A stretch of DNA of 64,000 bases from Cognatundibacterium oligocarboniphilum (GTDB lineage: Bacteria; Pseudomonadota; Gammaproteobacteria; Burkholderiales; Burkholderiaceae_D): assembly GCF_013377855.1 (NCBI RefSeq), contig NZ_JABXYJ010000012.1, forward strand, positions 1 through 64,000, read 5' to 3'. Every line of letters starts with the position of its first letter. The first letter of the stretch is position 1. The notes under the pieces are model-generated. The model did no database searches, had not been told where the DNA came from, and was given only the letters and a program-made list of their open reading frames with translations. A program made the position numbers and the translations under genes. Positions 34 through 51,910 of this stretch are shown piece after piece.

Positions 34-88
34 TCGGTGATTATTCTCCGGGACGCATTCCAATGCTCACATCTTGATGTATGATTGA

Positions 89-8730: not shown

Positions 8731-8769
8731 GCTTATTCAACTTGCTTATTTAAACAGCTTATTCAAACT
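8731..8769. repeat. 13-bp tandem repeat, three copies
   Basis: Three head-to-tail copies of a 13-mer start at 8731, 8744 and 8757, each opening GCTTATTCAA or GCTTATTTAA. A weaker fourth unit may follow at 8770. The array lies 45 bp behind the stop of the DUF2799-like gene. Confidence 0.7.
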
Positions 8770-8821
8770 ACTGATTGAAGCTGCACAGCAACCTGTCCAT
8801 GCCAAAAAATGTTGAAGCAGC

Positions 8822-8900
8822 ATACTCCCCCCATATTTTATAAAAAACAGCCTGATGCTTAGATGGTTAAAGGCTGTTTTCAGATACTGAAGGGGAGTAT
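8822..8900. repeat. 79-bp dispersed element, copy A
   Basis: The left end ATACTCCCC (8822-8830) and right end GGGGAGTAT (8892-8900) form a perfect terminal inverted repeat. Inside is a perfect 10-bp hairpin, AAAACAGCCT (8844-8853) with AGGCTGTTTT (8871-8880). The last 17 bases match ATACTGRRRGGGAGTAT. A second copy of exactly the same length lies at 26258-26336. It sits between the DUF2799-like gene and the glycine riboswitch. Confidence 0.75.
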
Positions 8901-9070
8901 ATTCTTAATGCAATGTATTCCCTGTTCCCGCTGCGTGACTGGCGAACCGCATCACAGCTTGCCGGCGCAGGCTGTTGGGTACAAAAAGCGGTGTTTTGCC
9001 ACATGTTCCACTTTCACCCGACTTCACCAAATATTTGGTTTTGAATATATCCAAGCTCAGTCAAGCCTTA

Positions 9071-9076
9071 TATAAT
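9071..9076 (+). promoter_or_regulatory. Probable -10 box of the gcv promoter
   Basis: A perfect TATAAT lies 10 bases ahead of the first riboswitch helix, placing the start of transcription near 9083. No good -35 box stands at standard spacing: TTGAAT at 9041-9046 is 24 bp upstream, which is too far. An activator may therefore be needed. Confidence 0.5.
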
Positions 9077-9085
9077 CCTGCTACT

Positions 9086-9302
9086 TGATCGGGAGAGAGC
9101 AGCAACGCGCTGCCGCCGAAGGGGCTAATACCCAACAAACTCTCAGGCAAAAGGACCGATCAACTGGGGAGTTGATATACACCCCACACTCTGGAGAGTG
9201 GTAGCGGCGGCGCAAGCCAGCCGGACTACCCACCGAAGGTGCGCACGGGATGGCAAACATCGTTGCTCCCGTAATCTCTCAGGTACCAGGACAGAGGGGT
9301 CT
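9086..9302 (+). promoter_or_regulatory. Tandem glycine riboswitch
   Basis: Two glycine aptamers in series. The first (about 9086-9163) closes with TGATCGG pairing to CCGATCA and holds GCCGCCGAAGGGGCTAATA and ACTCTCAGGCAAAAGGAC. The second (about 9185-9302) repeats the pattern with CTGGAGAG, CACCGAAGGTGCGCACGG and ATCTCTCAGGTACCAGGACAG. This is the standard cooperative glycine riboswitch (gcvT RNA). It turns on the downstream genes when glycine is high. The expression platform should lie between 9303 and the gcvT start at 9381. Confidence 0.96.
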
Positions 9303-9380
9303 GCGATTTTTTCGCACGCGACGGATATGGTTCGTCGATGTGCGTTTGTTCGTCCCTTCTAATCTGGTAATGAGGTTCTC

Positions 9381-11141: not shown

Positions 11142-14021
11142 ATGACCCGTCCTTCACTGACTCAACTGGAAGCGCATGACGCTTTCATTTCCCGCCATAT
11201 CGCCCCATCCGACGCTGAACAAGCGAAGATGCTGGCTGTGCTTGGCTATGCTGACCGCAATGCGCTGATTGATGCGATCGTGCCTGCCAATATCCGCCGC
11301 CATGATGTTTTGCCGTTGGCTGGATTTACCGCAGCGAAATCCGAACCGGAAGCGCTGGCGCAACTGAAAGCCATCGCTGGTAAAAACCAGGTGCTGAAAT
11401 CCCTGATTGGTCAGGGCTATTACAACACCCACACGCCGGGTGTCATTCTGCGCAATATCTTTGAAAACCCAGCCTGGTACACCGCTTATACGCCTTACCA
11501 GCCAGAGATTTCTCAAGGTCGTCTGGAAGCAATGCTGAATTTCCAGACCATGATCACCGACCTGACCGCAATGGATATCGCCAATGCCTCGATGCTGGAT
11601 GAAGGCACCGCCGCTGCCGAAGCGATGACGCTGATCCAGCGTGTCGGCAAATCCAATTCCAATGTGTTTTATGTTGCCGCCGATGTCTTGCCGCAAACCC
11701 GCGAAATCATCGAAACCCGCGCTGAACCGCTGGGCATCGAAGTCCGTACCTGCCACAGCAGCGATGCACTGAACAATGATTGCTTCGGCGTGCTGTTGCA
11801 ATATCCGGGCGCGAATGGCGATATCCGTGATTACCGCGAATACGCTGCTGCCATCCACGCTAAAGGCGCTATGGTGATTGCCGCTGCCGATCTGCTGGCA
11901 CTGACATTGCTGACACCGCCGGGTGAGTGGGGTGCTGATGTGGTGGTTGGCAACAGCCAGCGTTTTGGCGTACCGCTGGGATTCGGCGGCCCGCACGCAG
12001 GCTATATGTCCACCCGCGATGCATTCAAGCGCAGCATGCCTGGTCGTCTGGTTGGCGTGACCATTGATGCACAGGGCAATTCTGCTTACCGTCTGGCATT
12101 GCAAACCCGTGAGCAACACATCCGCCGCGAAAAAGCGACGTCCAACATCTGTACTGCACAGGTGCTACTGGCAGTGATGGCATCCATGTATGCCGTATAT
12201 CACGGCCCTGATGGCTTGCGCCGTATCGCGCAACGTGTACAGCGTCTGACTGCAGTGTTGGCGGCAGGTCTGCAACAGATGGGCCTTACACTGGCGAACA
12301 GCACGTATTTTGATACGCTGACGGTGAATGTCGCTGATGCAGCCGCAGTGCATGCAGCAGCAACGGCACAAGGCTATAACCTGCGCCAGATCAGCGCGAC
12401 GCAAGTCGGTATCTCATTCGACGAAACTGTGACGCGTGAGGACGTGGTGAACGTCTGGAGCATGTTTGCTCAAGGTAAAGCAACGCCGGATTTCAATGCG
12501 GTTGAAGTTACTGTCAGCGATGCAGTGCCAGCCACACTGGTTCGCAGCAGCGCTTTCCTGACTCATCCGACTTTCAGCCGCTACCATGCTGAACATGAAA
12601 TGCTGCGTTACCTGCGTAGTCTGGCTGACAAGGATCTGGCACTTGATCGCAGCATGATTCCGCTTGGTTCCTGCACCATGAAGCTGAATGCCACGTCGGA
12701 AATGATTCCCGTCACCTGGCCGGAATTTTCTAATATTCACCCATTCGCACCGCAAGATCAGACGCTGGGTTACCGCGAAATGATTGACCAGCTCGAAGCC
12801 ATGCTGTGTGCAGCGACTGGCTATGCGGCTGTTTCCCTGCAACCGAATGCCGGTTCACAAGGCGAATATGCTGGCTTGCTGGTGATCCGCAAATACCATG
12901 AGTCCCGTGGCGAAGGTCATCGCAATATCTGCCTGATTCCATCATCTGCACACGGTACCAATCCGGCATCGGCAGCGATGGTCGGTATGGAAGTTGTGGT
13001 CGTTGCCTGTGATGAACGCGGTAACGTCGATCTGGTTGATCTGGCTGCCAAGGCAGAAAAACACAGCGCCAATCTGGCAGCGATCATGGTGACTTACCCA
13101 TCGACCCATGGCGTATTTGAAGAAGGCATTCAGCAATTGTGCGAAATCGTACATAGTCACGGTGGTCAGGTCTATGTTGACGGCGCTAATATGAACGCGC
13201 TGGTTGGTGTGGCCGCACCGGGGCAATTTGGCGGCGACGTCAGCCATCTGAATCTGCACAAAACTTTCTGTATTCCTCACGGTGGTGGCGGTCCGGGTGT
13301 TGGCCCGGTGGCAGTCGGTGCGCATCTGGCAAAATTTTTACCGAATCAGAAATCGACTGGCTATGTGCGTGGTGAAGACGGTATTTCTGCTGTCAGCGCA
13401 GCACCGTTTGGCTCGGCATCGATTTTGCCGATCTCGTGGATGTATATCGCGATGATGGGGGCAGAAGGATTGAAAGCCGCAACAGAAACTGCAATTCTGG
13501 CAGCGAACTACATCGCCAAACGCCTTGCTCCGCATTATCCGGTGCTGTATTCCGGTCATGACGGTCTGGTGGCGCATGAGTGCATTCTGGATTTGCGTCC
13601 TTTATCTGATGCGACAGGTATTTCGAATGAAGACGTGGCAAAGCGCCTCATTGACTTCGGTTTCCACGCACCTACCATGAGCTTCCCGGTTCCCGGCACC
13701 TTGATGATTGAGCCGACCGAGAGCGAATCGCTGGCAGAGCTGGATCGTTTTATCGATGCGATGATTGCGATTCGTGAAGAAATCGCCAAAGTGGCGAGTG
13801 GTGAATTCGATGCGAAAGACAATCCATTGAAAAACGCACCGCATACCATGCAGGCATTGCTGTCCGCCGAATGGAACCGTCCGTACAGCCGCGAAGCAGC
13901 AGCGTATCCGGTCGCCAGCCTGCGTCACCAGAAGTACTGGGTACCAGTAGGTCGCGCTGATAACGTGTATGGCGACCGCAATCTGTTCTGCTCTTGCGTA
14001 CCGCTGTCGGATTATCAGTAA
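11142..14021 (+). CDS. gcvP: Glycine dehydrogenase (decarboxylating), P protein
   Basis: The PLP enzyme that decarboxylates glycine and loads the aminomethyl group onto the H protein. At 959 aa it is the single-chain form with fused N- and C-terminal halves. The PLP lysine is in [20 protein letters not shown], near residue 710. The start [23 protein letters not shown] is characteristic of the family. It ends the gcv cluster, and a strong terminator follows at 14080. Confidence 0.97.
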
Positions 14022-15926: not shown

Positions 15927-17241
15927 TTCGCCACGCAAGCCTGAGCCGCGCGGCTCAGGCCGCAGCCGGGACAAATCTGGCTCTGGCGCTGCGACCAGAT
16001 ACCGCTGGCGGTATCTGGTGACGGTGGCTGTGCTGATTGGTGTGCTGGTTTTACTGGTGAGCGGTAACTGGTTTGCAGAAGAAGTCGCGGCGAATACACC
16101 GGCCAAAAGCGACGGCAGTCATTTTTTGACTATGCCAGCCCGTAACGATCCGGTGTCTGCCAATCCAGCACAGGCGCGTGAGATACAGCGCCAGGCACTG
16201 CTCGCCCAATGGCTGCAGGCCGATCAGACTTTGTGCCAGTATCAGGACAGTACCCGTTATCCGAATTATTCCCGTCCGATTGCTGAACATCCTGATCAGG
16301 TGTATCCGAATCAGCTGATTACAGAATCCCACCCGATGCGCAAAAAGGGAGGCGGTACTGACCAGGAGGTTCAGATTCAGACCACCCAGTCGCGCGTGTA
16401 TCTGGCTGCGGGAGAAAGCGTGCAGTTCACAATACAGGCGAAAAACAAGAGTGGGCAAATGCTGCCGCTGATAACGGATAGAGCGCTCGCCAGAGGGATT
16501 ACCTACAATGCATCGCGCGAGGCGCCGCAGTCACCGGTGGCGATGTCGGACAGCGGTCGCGAGGGTGACCAGGTCGCCGGCGATGGTATTTACAGCGGTG
16601 TGCTGAATCCGGCGCAAACCGGCCTTGCAAGTTTTAACGGCACCATCCGCACAGAGCTCAGTTATACCGTCAACGGGCAGGCCGGCGTGGTTCTGTTTGA
16701 TGTGATCTATTCACCTGAAGTCCCGGCAATCTGGGCCGGTCCGGTCCGGGAAAGCACGGAAGGCGGTGCGCTGCGTTTCATCCTGAAAGCCAATGTACAG
16801 ATGCCGGGTCGCTATATCGTGCATGGCCGGGTTGACGACGCCAGAGGAAAACCGTTTGCGCTGGTGAGTTTCAATGATCTGCTGCCGCAGGGGAGTAATG
16901 ATATTCCGCTTGTCGTGGCAGGCAATCTGCTCAGGGATCAGACGCCGGTTTTTCCGCTGACGCTGCGGGATGTGGATGCTTATCTGCTCAAAGAAAACAC
17001 CGACCCTGACCGTGCGCTGATGCCGCGGATCGAAGGCACGGCTTATGTCAGCAAGACGTATCCGCTGAAAACGTTTTCCGATACGGAGTGGAGCAGTGAG
17101 GAACGCAGCCGTTATCTCACGGAGTTTGAAAAAGATGCAGGGCTGGCTAAAAATGCATTGATCAGTTTTGATCCTGATCTTGCGCGCCAGCCCCTGCCGC
17201 AGAGTGTGTGTTCTCAGAATAGAAACAATAAAACCCGTTAA
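15916..17241 (+). CDS. Membrane-anchored protein with Ig-like periplasmic part
   Basis: A 441-aa protein with a basic, Ser/Gly/Arg-rich cytoplasmic tail (residues 1-34), one transmembrane helix (YLVTVAVLIGVLVLLVSG, about 36-54) and a large outer part. The outer part is beta-rich. It contains SVQFTIQAKNKSG and GDQVAGDGIYSGVLNP, a loop common in Ig-like domains with a metal- or sugar-binding look, then GGALRFILKANVQMPGRYIVHGRV. No catalytic motif was seen. Its start lies inside the end of the hydrolase-like gene, indicating coupled translation. A membrane-bound partner, chaperone or inhibitor of the secreted protein is a reasonable guess, not shown by sequence. Confidence 0.6.
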   Translation: MPSDSPRKPEPRGSGRSRDKSGSGAATRYRWRYLVTVAVLIGVLVLLVSGNWFAEEVAANTPAKSDGSHFLTMPARNDPVSANPAQAREIQRQALLAQWLQADQTLCQYQDSTRYPNYSRPIAEHPDQVYPNQLITESHPMRKKGGGTDQEVQIQTTQSRVYLAAGESVQFTIQAKNKSGQMLPLITDRALARGITYNASREAPQSPVAMSDSGREGDQVAGDGIYSGVLNPAQTGLASFNGTIRTELSYTVNGQAGVVLFDVIYSPEVPAIWAGPVRESTEGGALRFILKANVQMPGRYIVHGRVDDARGKPFALVSFNDLLPQGSNDIPLVVAGNLLRDQTPVFPLTLRDVDAYLLKENTDPDRALMPRIEGTAYVSKTYPLKTFSDTEWSSEERSRYLTEFEKDAGLAKNALISFDPDLARQPLPQSVCSQNRNNKTR

Positions 17242-26188: not shown

Positions 26189-26257
26189 GACCGTGCATCA
26201 GATGCTATAAGCCGGATTCTCTGCTACCTATCCAATAAATCGCATGCAATAAAACAC

Positions 26258-26336
26258 ATACTCCCCCTTGTTTTTATTAAAAATGGTCTGATGCCCTTGA
26301 TTAGAAAGGGCTTTAAAGAATACTGGAGGGGAGTAT
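26258..26336. repeat. 79-bp dispersed element, copy B
   Basis: Ends are ATACTCCCC (26258-26266) and GGGGAGTAT (26328-26336), the same terminal inverted repeat and the same total length as copy A at 8822. The interior shares CTGATGC and ends in the 17-mer ATACTGGAGGGGAGTAT. A smaller inner hairpin pairs GCCCTT (26293-26298) with AAGGGC (26306-26311). It lies between prpB and prpC, 26 bp ahead of the prpC start. Confidence 0.75.
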
Positions 26337-49609: not shown

Positions 49610-50176
49610 ATGCCGCAAGCCCATACCCTGTCACAGCAGGAAATCATTGCACAGACCGAAGACTGGCTGGAAAAAGCCGTGATCGGTCTAAATCTTTGCC
49701 CATTTGCCAAAGCGGTGCAGGTTAAAAAGCAGATTCGCTACGTTGTCTCTGCCGCAGAAACACCGCAGGCGTTGCTACACGATCTGCAACAGGAGCTGGA
49801 AACCCTGGCCGAAGCCAATCCTGAAAAAATCGATACCACGCTGCTGATCCACCCGTTTGTCCTGAATGACTTTCTGGATTTCAATGATTTCCTCGACGTC
49901 GCTGATGGCCTGCTGGAAGAGCTGGATCTGGACGGTATTTTGCAGATTGCCAATTTTCATCCCGACTATCAGTTTGCAGATAGCAGTCCGGACGACATGA
50001 GCAATTACACCAACCGATCTCCGTTTCCGACGCTGCATTTATTGCGAGAAGATAGCATTAGCCGGGCGGTAGAAGCGTTTCCGGAAGCTGAAGCCATTTT
50101 CGAGAAAAATATTGAGACGATGGAGCAACTGGGCATCGAAGGCTGGCATCGCCTGTTTCCCGATCGGTCGAAGTGA
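49610..50176 (+). CDS. DUF1415 family protein
   Basis: A conserved protein of 188 aa. The opening EDWLEKAVIGLNLCPFAKAV and the middle LDGILQIANFHPDYQFADSSPDDMSNYTNRSPFPTLHLLRE-type block (residues about 120-155) mark DUF1415. The single Cys in NLCPF and the His/Asp-rich block might form an active or metal site, but no function is known. AAGGAG stands nine bases ahead of the start. Confidence 0.88.
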   Translation: MPQAHTLSQQEIIAQTEDWLEKAVIGLNLCPFAKAVQVKKQIRYVVSAAETPQALLHDLQQELETLAEANPEKIDTTLLIHPFVLNDFLDFNDFLDVADGLLEELDLDGILQIANFHPDYQFADSSPDDMSNYTNRSPFPTLHLLREDSISRAVEAFPEAEAIFEKNIETMEQLGIEGWHRLFPDRSK

Positions 50177-50315: not shown

Positions 50316-50414
50316 ATGTTTTCAGGAGGTATTTCTGAAAACATACTGGGAGGGAGTATTTTTGATTCCCCTTATTTTTCGCTGGGAACCCGCGAATATT
50401 TACACATACTCCCT
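50316..50414. repeat. Dispersed element, rearranged copy C
   Basis: A perfect hairpin ATGTTTTCAG (50316-50325) with CTGAAAACAT (50335-50344) runs into ATACTGGGAGGGAGTAT (50343-50359), the right-end 17-mer of copies A and B. Then 46 bases later comes CATACTCCC (50405-50413), the left-end motif. AGGGAGTAT and ATACTCCCT thus face each other in the order opposite to A and B. It looks like the end of one element and the start of another, or a degenerate copy. It lies in the DUF1415-lysC gap. Confidence 0.6.
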
Positions 50415-50659
50415 ATTATCAGGCAATATGCCGGCACCCGGCACCGCATAGTCAGCACCACCGTTCTGTCTGATAAACAGAAGATTCATCAGTTTTTTGA
50501 TGATTTTTTCTCTGAAACTGTAGAAAATTTGCCTGGAATCTTCAGTTCTCCACGAATTCTTCTGCCCGTTGAGGGATTCGCGCCTTGTTATTTTGCGGAG
50601 CAACATGTAGAGTAAGGGGTTAATTTACTTCATTTTTCACCCTTAGCTTCTTAATATCT
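50415..50659. other. Leader region of lysC, no gene seen
   Basis: AT-rich stretch with a weak terminator-like hairpin (TTCATCA at 50485-50491, TGATGA at 50498-50503, then six T). A 99-codon frame crossing the region (50316-50615) overlaps the repeat and looks like chance. No lysine riboswitch pattern was recognised. Confidence 0.45.
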
Positions 50660-51910
50660 ATGGCTTTAATCGTCCACAAATACGGCGGAACTTCGATGGG
50701 CTCGACCGAGCGTATCAAGAATGTCGCCAAGCGCGTCGCCAAATGGCATGATGCCGGTCACCAGATAGTCGTGGTGCCATCGGCCATGTCTGGCGAAACA
50801 AATCGTCTTATCGGCCTCGCCAAAGAAATTATGGCGCAACCCGATCCACGTGAACTCGACATGATTGCCTCCACCGGCGAACAGGTGTCGGTCGGCCTGC
50901 TATCCATGGCATTGCAGGCGATCGGCAAACAGGCGGTTTCCTATGCCGGCTGGCAGGTAGCGATCAAAACGGATTCTGCCTATACCAAGGCTCGTATTGC
51001 ATCGATTGATGACGCCAAGGTCAAAGCCGACCTCGACGCCGGCAAAATCGTCATCATCACTGGTTTTCAGGGCGTGGATGATAAGGGTGACATCACTACA
51101 CTGGGACGCGGTGGTTCCGATACCTCCGCCGTGGCAGTTGCTGCTGCGCTGAAAGCGCAGGAATGCCTGATCTACACCGACGTTGACGGCGTCTACACCA
51201 CTGATCCGCGCGTGGTATCTGATGCCCGTCGCCTCAATACGGTGACATTTGAAGAAATGCTGGAAATGGCATCGCTCGGCTCCAAAGTGCTGCAAATCCG
51301 CTCCGTCGAATTTGCCGGCAACTACCGTATGCCAACCCGCGTTCTGTCATCCCTGACCGACCCGTTAATGCCGCTGGAAGAAGAAGCGAACTCCGGCACC
51401 CTGATTTCGTTTGAGGAAGATACCAATATGGAACAAGCTACCATCACAGGCATCGCGTTTAACCGTGATGAAGCAAAAATCACTGTCCTGGGCGTGCCGG
51501 ACAAGCCAGGCGTGGCCTATCAGATTCTCGGCCCGGTCGCTGACGCCAATATCGAAGTCGATATGATCATCCAGAATCAGTCCGTCGAAGGCAGGACCGA
51601 CTTCACCTTCACCGTACCGCGTGTGGAATATCAGAAAGCCATGGAAGTGCTCGAAGGCAGCGTCAAAGCCCACATCGGCGCTGCCAGCATTCAGGGGGAC
51701 TCCAAAGTCTCCAAGGTTTCTGTCGTTGGCGTCGGCATGCGCAGTCATGTCGGCATTGCCTCTCAAATGTTCCGTACTTTGTCGGAAGAGGGCATCAATA
51801 TCCAGATGATCTCCACCTCGGAAATCAAGATTTCCGTCCTGATCGACGAAAAATACATGGAACTGGCCGTACGCGCTTTGCATAAGGCGTTCGGTCTCGA
51901 ATCCGCCTGA
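50660..51910 (+). CDS. lysC: Aspartate kinase
   Basis: Phosphorylates aspartate, the first step toward lysine, methionine and threonine. It is 416 aa. The start MALIVHKYGGTSMGSTERI carries the family KYGGTS motif. GRGGSDTSAVAVAAAL and the TDVDGVYTTDPR block complete the kinase domain (to about residue 245). Two ACT domains follow (about 265-410), the sites of feedback inhibition by lysine and threonine. It is followed by a tRNA-Ser gene. Confidence 0.96.
   Translation: MALIVHKYGGTSMGSTERIKNVAKRVAKWHDAGHQIVVVPSAMSGETNRLIGLAKEIMAQPDPRELDMIASTGEQVSVGLLSMALQAIGKQAVSYAGWQVAIKTDSAYTKARIASIDDAKVKADLDAGKIVIITGFQGVDDKGDITTLGRGGSDTSAVAVAAALKAQECLIYTDVDGVYTTDPRVVSDARRLNTVTFEEMLEMASLGSKVLQIRSVEFAGNYRMPTRVLSSLTDPLMPLEEEANSGTLISFEEDTNMEQATITGIAFNRDEAKITVLGVPDKPGVAYQILGPVADANIEVDMIIQNQSVEGRTDFTFTVPRVEYQKAMEVLEGSVKAHIGAASIQGDSKVSKVSVVGVGMRSHVGIASQMFRTLSEEGINIQMISTSEIKISVLIDEKYMELAVRALHKAFGLESA

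Follow-up and report, generated by a model that had tools for sequence, protein, structure and literature searches.

Several described systems come close to the repeats reported here. Lambda-type att sites have core half-sites with distant arms, and sites of the SlmA, Noc and MatP type show a biased distribution relative to the terminus; CCCGGG is also the centre of the Noc consensus. For the flanks, the nearest precedent by analogy is the published gyrase motif, which in the portions of PMC6379681 drawn on here consists of a central part and two GC-periodic regions over 130 bp; according to the same portions, BIME-2 houses gyrase cleavage sites. REP/REPIN sequences with their RAYT, and TIRYT repeats, are dispersed, extragenic and palindromic, and, as far as the excerpts of PMC6006769 and PMC3733652 go, our sites share these properties and likewise occur in genomes with a RAYT-like gene. 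With moderate confidence, we propose that the sites are putative composite architectural binding sites on double-stranded DNA, each with a core of about 79 bp and phased wings. The family is real, and no description of the motif or of such Undibacterium repeats was found in a surface-level search of the literature.

The window, that is, the whole stretch of 64,000 nucleotides that was analysed, contains three such sites. The initial annotation had pointed out 79-bp copies at 8822..8900 (copy A) and 26258..26336 (copy B) with perfect 9-bp ends ATACTCCCC/GGGGAGTAT and CTGATGC in common, and these properties were confirmed, as were the right-end 17-mers ATACTGAAGGGGAGTAT and ATACTGGAGGGGAGTAT. 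Both copies lie on the plus strand in the configuration L-I/R-I. Copy A (profile score 59.4 bits) stands 5′ of a glycine riboswitch, as had been stated, and of gcvT; its left end module (8822..8837, plus strand) is a 16-bp footprint with the outer half-site ATACTCCC, and its right end module (8884..8900, plus strand) reads ATACT...GGGGAGTAT, an imperfect version of the palindrome ATACTCCCGGGAGTAT. Copy B (63.6 bits) occupies the gap between prpB and prpC, where nine other genomes also have a site, and its right end module, ATACTGGAGGGGAGTAT, is at 26320..26336 (plus strand). A further right end noticed at 50343 is genuine as well, being part of a third site at about 50343..50421, placed between the genes at 49610-50176 and 50660-51910, which gives partial, weak profile matches (15.5 and 11.3 bits). 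This site, which has both end modules flipped (L-II/R-II) and lies on the minus strand, could not be recognised in the initial annotation. The sites of the window are intergenic, as claimed, and a 99-aa ORF across the third is probably spurious. A lone 9-mer is unremarkable in the window, with 13 matches at up to one mismatch against 8.7 expected, a number reached by 12 of 100 shuffles; what is noteworthy is the pairing of ends at a fixed distance. The riboswitch ahead of gcvT is a tandem glycine riboswitch (9080-9304) of ordinary appearance, both of its aptamers exceeding the Rfam gathering score.

In the genome to which the window belongs (3.67 Mb, 34 contigs), the pattern ATACTCCC-N(45..75)-GGGAGTAT occurs 19 times, with every span between 77 and 80 bp, whereas the reversed-pattern control gave no match in this genome and the chance expectation for the exact pair is about 0.03. 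A sequence-only profile (R1), built from 22 exact-ended copies, adds several dozen more: at E ≤ 0.01 it gives 74 match rows, which, as a row may count one site twice (once per strand), represent about 61 distinct places. Down to an E value of about 0.35, 73 distinct sites were inspected individually, the 19 exact ones included and ten weaker places (E 0.2-0.7) left out. Five other genomes have at least 109 rows each, and G014 has at least 92 distinct site positions. The existence of a large, dispersed and intergenic family without a name is supported by these dozens of copies in the genome itself and in its relatives.

Presence within the genus is nearly all-or-none. Under strict filters, R1 gives at least 26 rows in 15 of 43 genus genomes (from 26 to at least 109 in the 14 rich genomes other than that of the window), 12 rows in one, one or two in nine, and none in eighteen. 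The genome with 12 match rows, G003, is intermediate between rich and site-free genomes, and decay is possibly in progress there. The exact form was found in 15 of 60 relatives, each within the genus, and in 4 of 399 genomes sampled across the order, all four of them Undibacterium; a scan of one genome per species (84,980 species) gave at least 113 stretches, and the 80 matches listed were all from Undibacterium or unnamed Burkholderiales MAGs. The closest named relative compared is U. griseum (G029), with TrpA 95% and PrpC 100% identical. A tree built from four proteins for 35 genomes of the 43 has several deep nodes with support below 0.6, and the branches of G021 and G020 are long in it, probably from wrongly picked ORFs; there the site-poor genomes fall in about four places, which suggests, tentatively, that the family was lost almost entirely and repeatedly within the genus.

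The consensus of the exact form consists of ATACTCCCC, a T tract near position 14-18, an A tract near 22-25, the core, ATAC near 64, and GGGAGTAT. Each end is built on the half-site ATACTCCC, which may point either way; its full form is ATACTCCCGGGAGTAT, and this perfect palindrome is present in some relatives' copies. The left 16-bp footprint has either ATACTCCCC on its outer edge or GGGGAGTAT on its inner edge, while nearly every right footprint contains ATACT...AGTAT, and either CCC adjoins the former word or GGG the latter. The two end modules are about 47 bp apart and enclose the A/T tracts and the central core, which in some lineages is a palindrome. For the 73 sites, all in the window's own genome, the left/right configurations are I/I at 22, II/I at 18, II/II at 17 and I/II at 15, with one ambiguous, where the calls allow two changes per half-site. 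Non-I/I forms may be under-counted, since I/I copies were what the profile was built from.

The core, in turn, comes in several types. At most listed sites of G014 and G035 it resembles TTGTCCA-N-TGGACAA (judged by eye); in G011 it is TCCGCA/TGCGGA-like (at trp, prp or both), and GCGCA/TGCGC-like cores are found in G006, G013, G015 (both loci), G017 (prp) and G025 (trp). The group to which the window's genome belongs has GCCCT...AGGGC-like cores with a weaker palindrome. Core type tracks the genome and not the locus, and is lineage-specific.

Such symmetry could also belong to a structured RNA that is transcribed between genes and acts as a small RNA, an attenuator or a signal for processing, a reading that had been put forward for the two copies but that we consider very improbable. 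Inner hairpins are indeed predicted in copies A and B, whose plus strands fold better than shuffles (z of -5.3 and -3.4, respectively), but they are not well conserved within their own group. Covariation of the inner stems, which had been named as support for a mobile or RNA family, is uneven. With each stem taken in its best register, pairing in the CGC core group exceeds that expected from independent columns (0.72 against 0.55 in 17 copies; 0.79 against 0.70 in 11 copies), perhaps owing to a mixture of CCGCA and GCGCA subtypes; the own-type stem is only slightly above expectation (0.63 against 0.57, 0.65 against 0.62, and 0.63 against 0.54), and the GTCCA stem is at expectation (0.92 against 0.93, and 0.84 against 0.84) and so gives no sign of compensation. 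Past the 8 end pairs, which are fixed because the rows were selected for exact ends, 7 and 14 of the 22 rows show no pairing in the outer stem. Where the end types are mixed, as at 33 of the 73 sites, both ends have the same sense, so that their 8 bases cannot pair. No gene-strand preference appeared in a set of 158 sites or in the 73, RNAalifold gave no consensus pairs on alignment A2 (which is imperfect at the right end), and at the Rfam gathering threshold the sites had no match, the window yielding just two glycine aptamers and one tRNA. With a reservation for the CGC excess, we read the symmetry of the core as one that is probably recognised as sequence rather than maintained as a hairpin.

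Orthologous sites are retained at two loci. In the trpB-trpA gap (anchored on TrpA, which was matched in 38 of 43 genomes, with loci for 30), the element is present in 13 of 30 genomes, degenerate in G019 and absent in 15, the gap being unreadable in G021. In the prpB-prpC gap (anchored on PrpC, which was matched in 42 genomes, 30 of them with loci), a counterpart of copy B was found in 10 of 30 genomes, that of the window included. Up to three changes per end were permitted, and a four-change fuzzy match at prp in G065 was treated as chance. G020, G022 and G003 have no element at prpB-prpC despite profile matches elsewhere, although in G020 the upstream gene was not recognised as prpB. Of the letters that make up the ends, 3 of 208 are changed at trp and 4 of 160 at prp; mean pairwise identity (trp/prp) is 0.973/0.951 in the ends and 0.474/0.554 in the interiors, and the left flank at trp has an identity of 0.343, against 0.278 for shuffled letters. 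Copies found only at orthologous sites and lacking conserved ends had been named as evidence against the family; the copies compared here are orthologous, and their ends are conserved. To judge from these alignments, the sites look old and vertically inherited.

Orthologous retention bears directly on the possibility, also raised in the initial annotation, that the copies are mobile elements. On this reading, old non-autonomous REP/REPIN- or MITE-like elements would have been spread by a resident RAYT-like protein and would now be mostly fixed, which we think unlikely. The sites are dispersed and intergenic and their ends are palindromic; of the 15 genomes rich in sites, 13 have a weak Y1-transposase-like protein, an element lies directly 3′ of the RAYT-like gene in G014, G035 and G020 (3 of 20 genomes), and the exact sites of G014 lean towards one replication strand, as with ssDNA transposons, 51 of 77 running with the fork (P = 0.006), or 58 of 92 (P = 0.016) when 15 further profile matches, from among the best listed, are added to the same 77. 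On the other hand, orthologous copies keep their ends while their interiors diverge, four end configurations exist, and ATACTCCC...GGGAGTAT occurs in only 22 of the 73 sites, in contrast to the constant terminal inverted repeats of a MITE. The GT[AG]G tag, a tetranucleotide that marks the base of REP/REPIN hairpins, is missing at the ends, where it should be borne in mind that the aligned copies were chosen by ATACTCCC/GGGAGTAT and that the profile-found copies keep the half-site. No exact copies were found in viral contigs, and no target duplication was obvious by eye in 19 flanks of the window's genome. Compared with REP/REPIN and TIRYT repeats, then, the sites lack the tag, are larger and of fixed length, have four configurations and are retained at orthologous places, and the RAYT-like gene mostly adjoins other repeats.

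A search for a REP-associated tyrosine transposase, which had been recommended, did reveal a resident RAYT-like gene. However, genomes in which sites are scarce or missing (G001, G066, G062, G065, G018, G004 and G003) carry the gene as well, and in 18 of 20 genomes, as judged by eye beside the gene only, it is adjoined by repeats of the CTCTGACCC/TATGTCCC type; for these two reasons the protein is not named as the partner. Elements that seemed to stand beside the gene in G015 and G025 proved to be spurious fuzzy matches, which weakened its candidacy further. At the aligned position of the catalytic Tyr, taken from the alignment to 4er8 and the Y---NP rule in the part of PMC6006769 consulted, there is Ser in G014 and G035 and Ala in G011, which are site-rich, and Phe in G062 and G001; in this comparison of 20 genomes, of which 13 are rich in sites, G066 has a changed HxH motif. 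The protein of the window's genome matches PF01797 (5.6e-10) and PDB 4er8 (E = 0.0017), and scores 67 bits with NF047646, below the 80-bit cut-off. By length, taxon and motif it is placed near subclass 2.1, an assignment by analogy; for RAYT subclasses 2.1 and 2.3, no REP-like sequences are reported in the sections of PMC6006769 used here. The gene itself (L219:2303-3022, minus strand; loci L219-L238 in the 20 genomes) has the CTCTGACCC/TATGTCCC-type repeats on its downstream side in those 18 genomes, and its product bears a C-terminal RGRPRK-like tail. The gene that follows it is presumably glutamate-synthase-like.

The flanks point instead to the architectural reading that we prefer. Over 172 distinct exact copies, GC troughs recur in the left flank near -6, -17, -28, -39 and -51; the best period of the left wing is 11.0 bp, with a power of 0.062 against a null maximum of 0.021 (0 of 1000 shuffles), although these copies, as in all the periodicity statistics, include orthologous ones and are not independent. 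For the right wing of the same copies the peak is at 9.0 bp, with a power of 0.036 (0 of 1000), and most sets give this wing a best period of 9-9.5 bp. The left period is 10.5-11 bp overall. When 178 copies are split by core into sets of 94, 51 and 33, the left signal was reached by 0 of 1000 shuffles in each set, and the right one by 0, 2 and 101 of 1000. The 73 sites taken by themselves gave 0 of 1000 on the left and 7 of 1000 on the right. A weaker periodicity persists 60-140 bp away (0 and 2 of 1000), and a stretch 345-400 bp upstream has a power of 0.006, a value given without a null. The presumed left wings in the window, with an AT/GC phasing of about five helical turns, would be the unstranded stretches 8767..8821 for copy A and 26203..26257 for copy B, as extrapolated from the pooled copies rather than from either copy alone. 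A genomic periodicity of 10-11 bp need not impart bending, according to the part of PMC7537859 consulted.

The comparison with gyrase sites (the E. coli motif of about 130 bp, the Mu SGS and BIME-2) holds for the long, phased GC/AT wings round a centre and for the intergenic location. A GC phasing that resembles that of strong gyrase sites is seen here in the periodic left wing and more weakly in the right. In contrast, our sites have 8-bp ends that hardly vary and a core that differs between lineages, where the published gyrase motif, in the passages drawn on, is degenerate; the left wing here also seems longer. We suggest that a putative sequence-specific, probably dimeric protein would bind the ends and the core, and that the surrounding 130-170 bp or so would be wrapped, in a complex that resembles that of gyrase or of a nucleoid-architectural protein. 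Such a complex would probably serve to organise the chromosome or to control supercoiling between genes, and not to regulate one operon. The sites would co-evolve with their binding protein and would decay together upon its loss. Ends kept genus-deep, cores that shift, and sites that are nearly or wholly missing in some lineages would all fit a sequence-specific partner that acts at many places and whose specificity changes. Naming this partner would test how a chromosome-wide system of sites and protein evolves in bacteria, and also whether extragenic palindromes can be architecture and not parasites.

As for the placement of the sites among genes, the two neighbouring genes of 158 sites, taken from simple ORF calls and read in the orientation of the site, are ++ at 43, -- at 40, +- at 35 and -+ at 18, with 22 overlapping; the corresponding numbers for the 73 sites are 18, 17, 18 and 10, with 10 overlapping. 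The strand of the neighbouring genes is therefore irrelevant, and a site stands in a divergent gap less often than in a convergent one. Clustering of neighbour genes returned shared loci such as trpBA and indicated no partner. Along the G014 chromosome (dnaA at 3,543,198, the terminus being assumed to lie opposite), regular spacing is absent among 77 sites, which look randomly placed (CV 0.89, P = 0.20), and there is no terminus bias, as the terminal quarter would be expected to have 23 of the 92 sites and has 20; the sites therefore follow no known macrodomain pattern. They are like SlmA, Noc and MatP sites in that tens of palindromic sites over one chromosome would serve one protein, but differ in consisting of two modules, a core and wings in place of a single short palindrome, and in being neither depleted nor enriched at the terminus in G014. 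A Noc/SlmA-like distribution was rejected for lack of terminus depletion in that genome.

A further scenario is that the sites are attachment-like recombination sites, with the ends as arm sites and the core as the crossover, and that their recombinase also built a cassette array beside sugE. Core half-sites round a spacer of about 9 bp, with distant arms, do resemble lambda-type att sites, and the array is the best support for this idea: at the locus of a sugE-like SMR gene (PF00893) and a hydroxyacid-dehydrogenase-like gene, G033 has five elements (L034, 7097-17681) and G027 three (L211, 2779-8131), all in one orientation and with differing small genes between them. In G033 these genes encode DUF1877, Polyketide_cyc2, FA_hydroxylase and GDSL proteins, and in G027 YfbU, SnoaL, glyoxalase and L-PSP proteins; one gene of 265-267 aa is common to both arrays. 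Similarity among the elements of the array extends beyond the 78 bp, by about 10-20 bp on the near side and 40 bp on the far side, and the window's genome has one element and one gene at this locus (L352, 3171-4015). Against recombination, the orthologous trp and prp gaps contain no cargo, and no dedicated tyrosine recombinase is evident from the integron-integrase model search, in which G025 and G029 have four match rows each, those listed falling, for each genome, in two proteins about 310-340 aa long. The family also differs from attP and integron attC in comprising dozens of fixed chromosomal copies, with no cognate integrase found and no attC core recognised. On balance, we regard recombination as an improbable explanation of the family.

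That the sites are canonical attC, as the G033 array had suggested, is unsupported: TIGR02249 integron integrases exceed the cut-off in 12 of the 43 genomes, which include neither that of the window nor G033, and no L-I/R-I elements lie within about 1.5 kb of the 12 integrase loci (L035-L046, some clipped by contig ends). The GTTRRRY frame of attC was not recognised by eye at the array repeats. It is conceivable, though we would not expect it, that the genus possesses one system of up to about 100 sites with independently invertible ends and a fast-evolving DNA-wrapping protein, in which the site type and its flanks were also recruited as the cassette boundary of a variable array. If this were true, the capture of cassettes and the architecture of the chromosome would depend on a single nucleoprotein complex.

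As separate observations, about a quarter of the Undibacterium genomes compared have an integron integrase that scores over the curated cut-off, and the array has an integron-like appearance, with neither a recognised attC nor an integrase in the stretches read. Several genes of the array have in common a promoter-like upstream block, found at 9051-9128, 17107-17184, 11771-11832 and 18717-18824 of L034.
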